From IMG/VR virus record IMGVR_UViG_3300025120_000273, positions 1 to 32,708 of that record: DNA of 32,708 nt; one strand, written 5' to 3'. This DNA comes from a virus. The notes beneath the pieces were generated by a model. That model had not been told where the DNA came from, did no database searches, and worked only from the letters and a program-made list of their open reading frames with translations. Positions 12,112 through 16,049 of the stretch are shown piece after piece. The translations under genes and the position numbers were made by a program. Within the stretch, counting starts at the first letter, position 1. Every line of letters starts with the position of its first letter.

Positions 12112-12487
12112 CTTTTTAAAATCAGATAGGCCTTCACTATGCGGTTGCTGTGGCGATCCGGTGGGGCCTCTTCTGGTCGAAGTAGATGGTAAATGGTTTG
12201 GGGCCTGTAGTATGGAACATCAAGAAGAAATAAAGAAAGGTAATAGATCGCCAAAGGTGGCACAAGTATCTGTTGCTGGTGTTCTTCATGCAAAATCCAA
12301 GCTGAAAGAAAGATATAAAGAATTTTCTGTTAAAAATAAAAGCTGGTCGTTTCGTGATTGGAGTGAGGACGATAGGGTTAGTTTTTTTGAGAGTTATACC
12401 AGGGAATATTTAAAATATGCCAATGAAAGGGCAAGGAATGGGGTAGATGGATCTTACGAAATACAAGATAAAGCACGGACTGAATAA
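12065..12487 (+). CDS. Zinc-finger protein of the replication operon
   Basis: A 140-residue protein with one clear metal site near the N-terminus: Cys26, Cys28, Cys29 and then Cys48 and His52 (LCGCCGDPVG to GACSMEH), a C-x2-C-x18-C-x3-H finger of the MYM/TRASH style. The C-terminal half is helical and charged (SKLKERYKEFSVKNKSWSFRDW). No family is firmly recognised. It overlaps the SSB gene by 47 bases and the primase-helicase gene by 41, unusually deep overlaps. I see no better internal start. A DNA-binding or protein-bridging role at the fork is inference. Confidence 0.7.
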   Translation: MSLFPTAKRKTTSHFNFLKSDRPSLCGCCGDPVGPLLVEVDGKWFGACSMEHQEEIKKGNRSPKVAQVSVAGVLHAKSKLKERYKEFSVKNKSWSFRDWSEDDRVSFFESYTREYLKYANERARNGVDGSYEIQDKARTE

Positions 12488-14282
12488 AGATAAGAGTTAC
12501 TTAGAAAAAAACAAGGGCAATGAACAGGATCTTATTGCAGAAATGCAGACCATAGGATTGAATGTTGGCTTTTTAAATACAAGCGGTGATCTGGTAAGGA
12601 TCTCAGTACAAGCAACCCCCGGAGTGAGGCCGGATAAAGGTAATGAAAAATCAGGGTGGTATGTTATTAATGTTGTTCATAATCACATATTCGCAACTTA
12701 CGGAAATTGGAGAACGGGGGCGGAATACAAATGGAGTTCTGTCCAGATCAATACACTTAGTCCAAATGAAAGGCAAGACTTACAATTAAAGATGCAACAG
12801 GCCCAGGAAGAGGCTAAGAAACAAAAGCTGCAAAGGTATGAGGAAGTTGCAAAAGATTGTCAGGCAAGGTTTAACACTTATTCAGAGGTTATAAAGCATC
12901 CTTACCTGGAAGCTAAACAAATCAAAAGTTATTCTTTAAAACTACACAATAAATCTTTGGTCGTGCCTATCTACAATGTAGATGGTGAGATTAGATCATT
13001 GCAGTTTATCCAGGAAGATGGATCCAAAAGGTTTGTATCAGCCGGACAAGTTAAGGGAAACATCTTTCTAATAGGAACTGACTTTAATTCTCTGTCAAAA
13101 ATTGAATCTCTGGTCGTGGTTGAGGGCATGGCTACCGGTGTTAGTGTATGGGATGCAACGCAGATGCCCGTGGCTTGTGTTTTTTCGGCTAACTTTGGTA
13201 ATGATGCGGTAGAAAACATAAGGAAAAAGACAGATGCCAGGATTTATTTGGCCTTCGATAACGATAAAACAGACATTGGCCGGAAGAAAGCAGAAGAGAT
13301 TGCGACCAGATACTATAATTGCCTGGTAAGAATCCCATCTATTGAAGGTGATTTTAATGATTTGGCAGTTAAACAAGGCCTGGATGCGGTTAAGTTAGAG
13401 ATTAGCGATCAGGGTTTAGGCGTTAGAAGTTTCTCTATTAAACAATTAAAGGGAGATCCACCGCCCAGATCTTGGTTAGTAGAAGGATTGTTAGAGAAAT
13501 CTAAACCTAGTTTGTTGGCGGCAGTCGGTGGTGTTGGTAAAAGTATGTTGGCCCTGGATTTGGCTATCAAAGTTTCCCAGGGGCAAGGCACTTGGTTAGA
13601 TAAACCTATTAAAAATGCCGGTAATGTTCTTATGTTAATGGCAGAGGATGATAGAAACGAAGTCTTTAGGCGTGTTAAGGCCTTGGATATTGGTGATAAA
13701 AGGTATGACGCTGTGTATGACGTTTTTGCTTATACAGTTCCAGATGCACCTAAACCATTAATATTGTTAAAGGATGATGCCAGGGGTTTAGATCTAACGC
13801 CCGAGGCCCACGAACTTATCAATGAGATATCTACCATTCCAGATCTATCTCTGGTGGTGATCGATCCAATACAATCTTTTGTTGCGGCACCTATTACTAC
13901 CAGTCAAGAAGCGGCTCAGTTGTATTGTCAATTTTGTTCTTCTATCGCATCAAAATTTGAGTGTTCTGTTTTATCCATTCATCACATGAGCAAGGCCGGA
14001 TTGCAAACTCAGGAATCAAGTTTCGATTCCAGGGCAAGTATCAGAGGATCCGCGGCAATCGTTGATGGTCATAGAATGGCCGCCACAATTTCTATTACTG
14101 ATGAGAAAACTGCGGAAAATATTTGTGCGGATGAGGGGTTAGAGTTTGATAGAACCAGGGTTGTAAATTTCCAGGTGGTGAAAGCTAACTCAAATGAAAT
14201 GGATACAAATCCCATGACATTGTTAAGGCGTGAGGCAGTCCTGGAAGTGTATAAAAAAGACAAAATTAACTTTGATTTTTAG
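12447..14282 (+). CDS. Toprim primase fused to RepA/AAA helicase
   Basis: A 611-residue bifunctional replication protein. Residues about 1-110 have no clear zinc-binding domain, and a helical linker follows. The Toprim domain carries VVVEGMATG (Glu226) and AFDNDKTD (Asp271, Asp273). The C-terminal RecA-like domain of the RepA hexameric helicase type has Walker A AAVGGVGKS (358-366), Walker B LVVIDP (Asp473) and the SIHHMSK motif (His512-His513), followed by RGSAAIVDGHR. It would lay primers and unwind DNA. No phage DNA polymerase is present, so the host enzyme must extend. The start at 12447 lies inside the preceding gene. An in-frame stop is followed directly by the next ATG. Confidence 0.9.
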   Translation: MDLTKYKIKHGLNKDKSYLEKNKGNEQDLIAEMQTIGLNVGFLNTSGDLVRISVQATPGVRPDKGNEKSGWYVINVVHNHIFATYGNWRTGAEYKWSSVQINTLSPNERQDLQLKMQQAQEEAKKQKLQRYEEVAKDCQARFNTYSEVIKHPYLEAKQIKSYSLKLHNKSLVVPIYNVDGEIRSLQFIQEDGSKRFVSAGQVKGNIFLIGTDFNSLSKIESLVVVEGMATGVSVWDATQMPVACVFSANFGNDAVENIRKKTDARIYLAFDNDKTDIGRKKAEEIATRYYNCLVRIPSIEGDFNDLAVKQGLDAVKLEISDQGLGVRSFSIKQLKGDPPPRSWLVEGLLEKSKPSLLAAVGGVGKSMLALDLAIKVSQGQGTWLDKPIKNAGNVLMLMAEDDRNEVFRRVKALDIGDKRYDAVYDVFAYTVPDAPKPLILLKDDARGLDLTPEAHELINEISTIPDLSLVVIDPIQSFVAAPITTSQEAAQLYCQFCSSIASKFECSVLSIHHMSKAGLQTQESSFDSRASIRGSAAIVDGHRMAATISITDEKTAENICADEGLEFDRTRVVNFQVVKANSNEMDTNPMTLLRREAVLEVYKKDKINFDF

Positions 14283-14816: not shown

Positions 14817-14958
14817 AGAAATGCAGCTTGTCATTAATTCCCTGGCAGAGATGGGTAAACCAATAATTAAAAAGGCCAAGCCAACAACTGAGGATAAGAA
14901 AACTCTTAAATCGATTGAGAATATTATCCATCAATTAGCCTTCGGGAATCATAAGTAA
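14788..14958 (+). CDS. Hypothetical 56-residue helical protein
   Basis: A 56-residue protein (MLVKINVSDKEMQLVINSLA at the start, SIENIIHQLAFGNHK at the end), with a beta-like N-terminus and two amphipathic helices. The sequence reads like a real small protein: regular hydrophobic spacing and Lys-rich surface. It is the last gene of the rightward early operon before the structured non-coding region. The start lies inside the preceding gene (29-base overlap) with AAAGGA upstream at an odd distance. No family recognised. Confidence 0.6.
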   Translation: MLVKINVSDKEMQLVINSLAEMGKPIIKKAKPTTEDKKTLKSIENIIHQLAFGNHK

Positions 14959-14963
14959 CAATG

Positions 14964-15084
14964 TTAAAATTAGATTGTGCAATCGGGTTTGTTCTCTCCT
15001 TAAAAATGAATGAGAAATACCCTAATTCTACCCCCAACGATCGGGTGTTTCCTTCGATCCTGGTTGCACAATCTTCCGTTTTAA
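14964..15084 (+). other. Structured non-coding element (possible three-way junction)
   Basis: The outer stem pairs TTAAAA (14964-14969) and GATTGTGCAA (14973-14982) with TTGCACAATC (15064-15073) and TTTTAA (15079-15084). It contains two internal hairpins: GGGT..TTCTC (14985-14996) with GAGAA..ACCC (15012-15022), and GATCG (15039-15043) with CGATC (15055-15059). Together they fold as a three-way junction of 121 bases with no open reading frame. It could be a structured RNA, an RNA switch, or a cruciform at a replication origin. The 10-base arm is perfect. The rest is pairing found by eye. It resembles no riboswitch or tRNA that I can name. Confidence 0.5.
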
Positions 15085-15144
15085 TGGCACTAGTAGTACC
15101 ATACTATGGCACTAGTAGTACCCTTCATAGGTACTAGATGTACC
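15085..15144. repeat. Three palindromic iterons, 22-bp period
   Basis: GGCACTAGTAGTACC occurs at 15086-15100 and 15108-15122, and a diverged copy GGTACTAGATGTACC at 15130-15144. The starts are exactly 22 bases apart, two helical turns, so all copies face the same side of the helix. Each unit is near-palindromic (GGyAC then GTACC). The first spacer is also palindromic (CCATAcTATGG). Such arrays are typical of plasmid replication-initiator binding sites or of co-operative operators. The adjacent winged-helix gene at 15212 is the natural partner (inference). They begin directly at the end of the structured element's right arm. Confidence 0.75.
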
Positions 15145-15168
15145 ACATATCCCAAACAAAACAAATAG

Positions 15169-15194
15169 AGAAAACCCCTTTGGGGGTTTCCTCA
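15169..15194 (+). terminator. GC-rich hairpin, possible terminator or attenuator
   Basis: AAACCCC (15172-15178) and GGGGTTT (15183-15189) form a seven-base-pair stem around a four-base loop (TTTG). The flanking GAGA/CCTC adds partial pairing. It stands 17 bases before the ATG of the winged-helix gene. The T run after the stem is short (TTT, then CCTCATATAT), so termination may be weak. It could end transcripts from the early operon or the structured element, or attenuate the gene downstream. Confidence 0.55.
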
Positions 15195-15211
15195 TATATA
15201 AAAGATTAAGA

Positions 15212-15655
15212 ATGAACGATCAGTTCTGGTGGATAGAAAATTCCATACCGCAAAAAGAGAACGAAAGCGGATGCGTCCGTGCGTCCGTGCTGAGTAAGTA
15301 TAAGAATTACTCGCAATTGAAATCGTGCGTGTGGAAGTGGTTTCGTTCCCGTGCGGGAGATACATCCTTACGTCCGGCCACGAAGTTAGTTCTCTGGGCG
15401 ATCTGCGAAAGACATAGGATCGATACCTTCAGTTCGCATGATGCCTATATTTATTACGGGAAAATGACCGGGTTAAATAGACGTACAGTCGGGCGTTGCG
15501 TGGATGAGTTGGTTGCGGCCGGGATCTTATGGATTGCGGTCGAAGGTGAGCGAAGGATCGTTAAACAAGCGAAACCGGGCGTTCGGAAGCATTTGCTCTT
15601 GGTCGGCCTGGGTGTCGTGATGATTGAGGAGTTACCGGAGTCGGGGGGTCGTTAA
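15212..15655 (+). CDS. Winged-helix protein, replication-initiator/HTH_36-like
   Basis: A 147-residue protein with a winged-helix domain: LRPATKLVLWAICERH, then YIYYGKMTGLNRRTVGRCVD and ELVAAGILWIAVEGERRIV as recognition helix and wing (about residues 52-120). This layout occurs in HTH_36 and plasmid RepA-like N-terminal domains. The DNA is clearly more GC-rich than the neighbours and contains the tandem word GCGTCCGT at 15273-15288, suggesting a separate origin. The gene stands right after the iterons and a hairpin, with no strong Shine-Dalgarno. Its stop overlaps the stop of the leftward gene (TTAA shared). It may bind the iterons; whether as replication initiator or repressor is open. Confidence 0.7.
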   Translation: MNDQFWWIENSIPQKENESGCVRASVLSKYKNYSQLKSCVWKWFRSRAGDTSLRPATKLVLWAICERHRIDTFSSHDAYIYYGKMTGLNRRTVGRCVDELVAAGILWIAVEGERRIVKQAKPGVRKHLLLVGLGVVMIEELPESGGR

Positions 15656-15870
15656 AAGCGGTTCATTATCCCGGCCGGGTAAAGAGTACGGGGAAAGCGT
15701 TTGGATTTTATTTCCCCGGGGTTTAGTCTGTAGTTCTCGGCTTGTTGTAGGATGGCCTGGTCGATTGGGAATTCATCGTAACCTTGGGCGGTCATGCAGT
15801 CGTGGGGATCTTCTTCCGTTCGTGCGTTGGCTCTGTCCATGCCGAGCGTTTGTCTGCTTTCGTATGTCAT
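15652..15870 (-). CDS. Hypothetical last gene of the leftward operon
   Basis: A 72-residue, polar protein (MTYESRQTLGMDRANARTEE at the start, QAILQQAENYRLNPGEIKS in the middle). The composition looks like a real protein, and better than the opposite-strand frame over the same bases, which is rich in Arg, Ser, Gly and Cys. There is no Shine-Dalgarno, only an AT-rich leader (TTTAATATTTAACT), and it is the one member of this operon separated by a sizeable gap (77 bases). Its stop overlaps that of the convergent winged-helix gene. No family recognised, so moderate confidence. Confidence 0.45.
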   Translation of the reverse strand: MTYESRQTLGMDRANARTEEDPHDCMTAQGYDEFPIDQAILQQAENYRLNPGEIKSKRFPRTLYPAGIMNRF

Positions 15871-15947
15871 AGTTAAATATTAAAGGTGGGGCGAGTTGCG
15901 TTCAAGGTCAATGGAAAAAAACCCTAAACATTCGCCCCGGGTATTGA

Positions 15948-16049
15948 TTATCTATCCATCCAATGCTTGGCTACCGCGTAAAGAGTGAGTGCGGCAGTCA
16001 GCCATATTAAAAAACCGATGCCGGAAATGAAACCGATTGTCTCAATCAT
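15948..16049 (-). CDS. 33-residue single-span membrane micro-protein
   Basis: A 33-residue protein: MIETIGFISGIGFLIWLTAA, followed by LTLYAVAKHWMDR. Residues about 4-26 form one continuous hydrophobic helix, with a basic/aromatic C-terminus likely in the cytoplasm. It overlaps the upstream zinc-ribbon gene by eight bases (ATGATTGA) with GGGG upstream, the coupling style of the whole operon, which is the main reason to believe it. Tiny membrane proteins of phage early regions often act on host membrane proteins or superinfection. No function can be read from sequence. Confidence 0.6.
   Translation of the reverse strand: MIETIGFISGIGFLIWLTAALTLYAVAKHWMDR

Follow-up and report, generated by a model that had tools for sequence, protein, structure and literature searches.

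Phased iterons beside a winged-helix gene: a probable replication origin and its initiator in a family of uncultured phages

The window, i.e. the whole 32.7-kb virus record that we analysed, carries three phased repeats at 15086-15144, upstream of a gene for a small winged-helix (WH) protein. We propose that this array probably represents the iterons of a replication origin, with the protein encoded from 15212 as its cognate initiator. The data strongly support the iteron-initiator pair and, fairly strongly, a replication origin at the array; the details of opening and helicase loading are proposed solely from the analogous systems of lambda (PMC7466680) and IncQ plasmids (PMC7557826). Few phages have a known replication start site, and in uncultured phages such sites are almost never annotated.

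Results

Organization of the locus

To the left of the array lies a replication-type block (DUF2800/PD-(D/E)XK nuclease, Sak4-like ATPase, Toprim-AAA_25 primase-helicase), followed in order by a structured element, the iterons, ATATCC, an A/C-rich tract, a hairpin and the WH gene; to the right of this gene come small minus-strand genes, then the terminase-portal-capsid block. The features are:

12447-14282, plus strand: Toprim primase and AAA_25 helicase (IncQ/RSF1010 RepA-like) in one fused protein, candidate partner for the initiator
14973-15073, plus strand: structured element, probably RNA (covariation, covariance model, invariant G-U pairs)
14973-14987 with 15059-15073: outer stem of the structured element
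about 15012-15023 with 15042-15054: inner stem of the structured element
15027-15035: apical loop with the conserved TCTACCCCC
15086-15100, plus strand: iteron 1, GGCACTAGTAGTACC
15101-15107, no strand: spacer 1, ATACTAT, the same throughout clade A
15108-15122, plus strand: iteron 2, GGCACTAGTAGTACC
15123-15129, no strand: spacer 2, CTTCATA
15130-15144, plus strand: iteron 3, GGTACTAGATGTACC, with perfect 5-bp arms
15147-15152, plus strand: ATATCC, directly 3' of the array, invariant in 14/14 aligned sequences
15153-15167, plus strand: A/C-rich tract, CAAACAAAACAAATA, candidate unwinding element
15168-15193, no strand: imperfect hairpin, preceded by the A/C-rich tract and followed by the WH gene, predicted in all representatives
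15212-15655, plus strand: WH protein, 147 aa, proposed initiator

The three 15-mers lie exactly where the preliminary description of this DNA placed them, with starts spaced by exactly 22 bp. Their description as palindromes applies to copy 3, which is perfect (GGTAC/GTACC), and not to copies 1 and 2, in each of which a single pair of the 5-bp arms is mismatched. A tandem-period scan (19-25 bp) of the window detected this array alone, and four unrelated phage genomes (~145 kb altogether) gave none; the isolated phages HTVC106P, CRP-406, MJing1 and PB15, which have a similar capsid or primase, carry neither a comparable array nor an ATATCC tract. Besides, the iteron motif, with at most 3 mismatches, occurs 15 times in the window versus 5.8 expected, a number reached in 0/100 shuffles.

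Other signals were searched around the array. No sigma70-like promoter was found near it, and DnaA boxes (TTATNCACA, at most 1 mismatch) are rarer than chance in the window, with none at the array. The cumulative GC skew, suggested earlier as a check for an origin, gave no such signal: it tracks the gene strand, is positive on both sides and shows at 15.1 kb no switch other than that due to gene strand. The GC content reaches 0.48 at 15001-16000 versus ~0.38 elsewhere, mostly over the WH gene.

Spacer 2 exists in two orientations in clade A: among 26 contigs it reads CTTCATA in 20 and the exact reverse complement, TATGAAG, in 6 (L003, L008, L012, L015, L022 and L024), with GTACC/GGTAC arms on its two sides, and the two forms sit on backgrounds with different downstream hairpins. 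In single-stranded DNA these arms could pair into a hairpin; flipping of the loop is the simplest explanation of the inversion, the action of a recombinase being less likely.

Conservation of the array among relatives

The exact pair of iterons was found in 25 IMG/VR contigs. Relatives of the WH protein are encoded at 54 IMG/VR loci according to a single-sequence search and at 117 according to a profile search, 80 of the latter being kept. Fifty-five proteins were grouped at 75% identity into 13 clusters, which are related to one another and so do not represent 13 independent events. Twelve of the 13 have a significant upstream tandem array (level reached in 0/100 shuffles) with a period of 22 bp in seven, 21 bp in four and 23 bp in one; in the last cluster (L122/L123) three copies are visible by eye, the third being inverted. 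Wherever an array was found it stands upstream of the WH gene. Across clusters the repeats—GGCACTAGTAGTACC, CTACCGTAGATGTCC, TGCAAAGATACTTTGCA, GTGGAAGCTTTGTCC, GGCGATTCTAGGGTAC and GGTACACCCATATGTGCA among them—diverged almost completely, but the spacing did not. The residues with which the predicted recognition helix begins vary by clade, as the iterons do: NRR, SSK, TPK, NHK or DRK. Two expectations of the preliminary description are thus borne out: a winged-helix gene follows the array, the two being paired in nearly every relative, and the spacing is conserved, a period of 21-23 bp being kept in 12/13 clusters.

No WH homologue was found in GenBank phages (50,697 records) or plasmids (72,556), and no confirmed one in the bacterial and archaeal genomes of the GTDB set; GenBank phage DNA gave no relevant match. 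At L001 and L023 the array-WH module stands on an upstream gene background different from that of the other clade-A loci, which suggests that the module was exchanged between phages.

The conserved tract between array and gene

ATATCC is the only invariant block in the alignment of 14 origins, and it is present upstream of the gene in 12/13 WH clusters, the L137/L069 cluster being the one exception. This anchor was tested independently: the exact 19-mer ATATCCATAACATAACATA, searched among 2.9 million IMG/VR contigs, occurs in 15, and a WH homologue adjoins it in 15/15; four of these contigs belong to a further lineage, whose 22-bp array is a different one (ACTATAGTAAATATGTCCCA). The hairpin is predicted in each of the 16 representatives examined, usually with a single bulge or mismatch. 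The duplex stability of the A/C-rich tract is unremarkable in the window (24% of contig windows are weaker); it is weaker in most relatives, and clearly weak in some of them only.

The array, ATATCC, the tract and the hairpin form a stable unit. The distance from this unit to the WH gene varies, with a MarR-like gene or a small ORF lying between them at L104, L105, L137, L069, L053 and L114. As other genes can intervene, the unit is not simply the promoter region of the WH gene. At L053, L114, L115, L122 and L123 the gene inserted between array and WH gene is a second, MarR-like winged-helix gene.

The hairpin scores as terminator-like on the minus strand, i.e. for leftward transcription, with its T-run on that strand; such a terminator would insulate the array from the genes encoded on that strand to its right. 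We rejected it as a plus-strand terminator, no T-run following on this strand. The terminator reading also fails to explain the conserved tract, since relatives such as L056 and L116 have no evident T-run.

The winged-helix protein and its proposed partner

Twelve of the 14 WH proteins tested match phrog_270, “replication initiation protein” (best E 7.7e-6, a weak and only domain-level match), two match the O-like phrog_678, and ten match HTH_36, for which the score of the window protein itself is under the Pfam cut-off. At the level of sequence the family resembles phage replication-initiation families, weakly but consistently. The AlphaFold model is a winged helix with a mean pLDDT of 70, its first ~30 residues being unreliable; its structural neighbours are generic winged helices (Z <= 7.3), and Foldseek returned no significant fold match. 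These neighbours include primosomal DnaB, RctB domain 1 and the RepA_N plasmid initiators (4pt7, Z 5.9); TubR also appears among the fold matches, and MarR-type folds are among the closest of them. No obvious helicase-recruiting domain is present in the 147 residues.

Upstream, the primase half of the fused protein matches Toprim_3, and the helicase half matches IncQ RepA (PDB 1g8y, E 4e-10). By BLASTP the latter shares 28% identity with IncQ1 RepA over 247 columns (E 2e-14), and 27-28% with IncQ plasmids. The AAA_25 helicase was found in 18/18 records searched. The earlier statement that the phage lacks its own polymerase agrees with the count of family A and B DNA polymerases (PolA, PolB), 0/18 in records that are all probably incomplete. 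A tyrosine integrase is encoded in 10/18 relative records (G001, G002, G004, G007, G008, G012, G013, G015, G016 and G017), which makes a temperate lifestyle probable for many of these phages; in four clade-A records (G000, G003, G005 and G011), which may be fragments, no integrase was found.

The structured element

The structured element announced upstream of the iterons is real: the RNA fold z-score is -5.9 for 14955-15211, and in clade A six pairs are altered on both sides (0/500 shuffles; slid controls 0-2). A covariance model trained on clade A only gave hits in clades B and G at the equivalent site, immediately before the iterons (E 1e-11 to 1e-7), and no convincing hit in other clades; a TCTACCC motif of the apical loop is common to the three. 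Besides that of the window, the stem-loop loci are L046-L050 and L100-L102. Two G-U pairs of the outer stem are invariant in 16/16 clade-A sequences and would be A-C mismatches on the complementary strand, which favours RNA over a DNA cruciform: the element is probably a plus-strand RNA. Its internal loop contains a UCCUU-like stretch (CUCUCCUUAA in clade A) resembling the 16S anti-Shine-Dalgarno sequence. Rfam gave no match at gathering thresholds. The structure thus stands, but not its role as a constituent of the origin at large: it is confined to three close clades and cannot be a required part of a general origin.

Discussion

A proposed origin-initiator reading of the locus

The initiator/origin proposed in the preliminary description holds as regards a phased array paired with a WH gene and weak matches of its product to initiation families; the binding, the opening, the helicase loading and the start of replication are inferred. 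The WH protein would bind the three phased sites, which face the same side of the helix. Once occupied, the array may bend or strain the adjoining ATATCC/A-C-rich tract until it opens, and the phage's own Toprim-RepA-type primase-helicase would enter the opened DNA, perhaps aided by the hairpin. The genome would then be copied by the host DNA polymerase, proposed here because no phage polymerase was found. What counts for an origin is the absence of a second iteron array in the window, the period kept among relatives, the invariance of ATATCC and a partner helicase in every record; what counts against it is the weakness of the WH matches, the generic fold, the size of 147 aa only, the unremarkable stability of the tract and the lack of a GC-skew signal.

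The best reading is an origin working like those of lambda (O) or IncQ while being a member of neither. In lambda the smallest fragment competent for unwinding consists of two iterons and the A+T-rich region (PMC7466680). The present locus shares with lambda O/ori-lambda an initiator of winged-helix type encoded by the phage, few phased iterons and a flanking tract, A+T-rich in lambda. However, the lambda iterons lie inside gene O, whereas here the array precedes the WH gene, sometimes with other genes in between; and in lambda P delivers the host DnaB, whereas this phage brings its own RepA-type helicase.

With the oriV of IncQ/RSF1010 it has in common three iterons, a short conserved block, hairpins, a RepA-family helicase and a dedicated primase; in IncQ-3 plasmids too the number and sequence of iterons vary (PMC7557826). 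The A/C-rich tract is a candidate counterpart of the A+T-rich tract of this oriV. At the opposite, the primase is here of Toprim type and fused to the helicase, when IncQ RepB matches RepB_primase, the conserved block is ATATCC and not CTGCGCCTAGTGGAG, and we rejected homology between the WH protein and RepC, since hhalign with IncQ1 RepC gave a probability of 0.2% over 15 columns.

The RepA_N initiator of PLE, a phage satellite of Vibrio cholerae, applies a WH DNA-binding domain to semi-palindromic direct-repeat iterons (PMC7145576). The association of a WH domain with repeated iterons is likewise found in the RepA_N initiators of PLE and of staphylococcal plasmids, and 4pt7 is among the fold matches; but the profile searches run gave no sequence similarity, and our protein has no extra C-terminal domain. 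Lastly, mycobacterial prophages have RNA-based origins, with a non-coding RNA near the origin (PMC7157519). The candidate RNA stem-loop at 14973-15073 recalls them, except that these origins have no initiator protein, when the WH initiator is universal here and the RNA element present in three clades only.

An action of this RNA in initiation is one possibility. We advance only tentatively that the lineage of the window has a composite origin of protein and RNA, in which the transcribed stem-loop would act in initiation together with the WH initiator, as a primer, through an R-loop or as a copy-number brake.

Other readings of the array

A DNA-binding protein encoded beside repeats fits a self-regulator also. 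That the array be only an autoregulatory operator, from which the WH protein controls its own operon while replication starts elsewhere, seems unlikely to us. Phased palindromes are indeed bound by many winged-helix repressors, MarR-type folds are among the closest fold matches of the model, and the roles of initiator and self-repressor can coexist, so that an operator could be true in addition. But no sigma70-like promoter was recognized near the array, the invariant ATATCC would be left without explanation, the window has no further iteron arrays, and the gene moves away from the array, or is cut off from it by others, when array, ATATCC, tract and hairpin remain joined.

A site for recombination or partition is a much weaker candidate, and we consider it very improbable. 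Inverted arms around 7-bp spacers do resemble the core of a tyrosine recombinase, spacer 2 is found in both exact orientations, an integrase accompanies ten of the 18 relatives, and in clade A the strongest inverted repeat of the array is centred on spacer 1 and not on an iteron. Such spacer-centred palindromes were, however, not seen in the other clades tested, and no integrase was found in the available sequence of the four clade-A records searched. A centromere of TubR/ParR type could be evoked from the presence of TubR among the fold matches, but no partition motor appeared among the ORFs scanned. The primase-helicase is found in all records, versus an integrase in about half. Hardly any weight, finally, can be given to an RNA-level element, in which the repeats would form tandem hairpins in a transcript continuous with the upstream stem-loop (a leader or a non-coding RNA). 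The covarying stem-loop is directly upstream, and repeats 1 and 2 are able to pair in RNA; but the iterons of most clades give no significant hairpins, all clades besides A, B and G have the array without the RNA element, and a fixed period of 21-23 bp with a changing sequence is expected from DNA-protein binding and not from RNA hairpins.

Significance of the family

Read as origin and initiator, the WH family would provide 13 or more naturally occurring pairs of initiator and iterons, built on one scaffold but differing in DNA specificity. With so many pairs, a code between recognition helix and iteron is directly testable, and the family might possibly yield a set of mutually compatible minireplicons. 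The succession of a 21-23 bp array, ATATCC, an A/C-rich tract, a hairpin and a WH gene also makes a search rule for origins, usable for their annotation in metagenomic phages without a polymerase. Were the composite origin true for the lineage of the window, the wider family would represent a type of origin whose recognition sequences change freely while the spacing stays fixed and ATATCC serves as the anchor.
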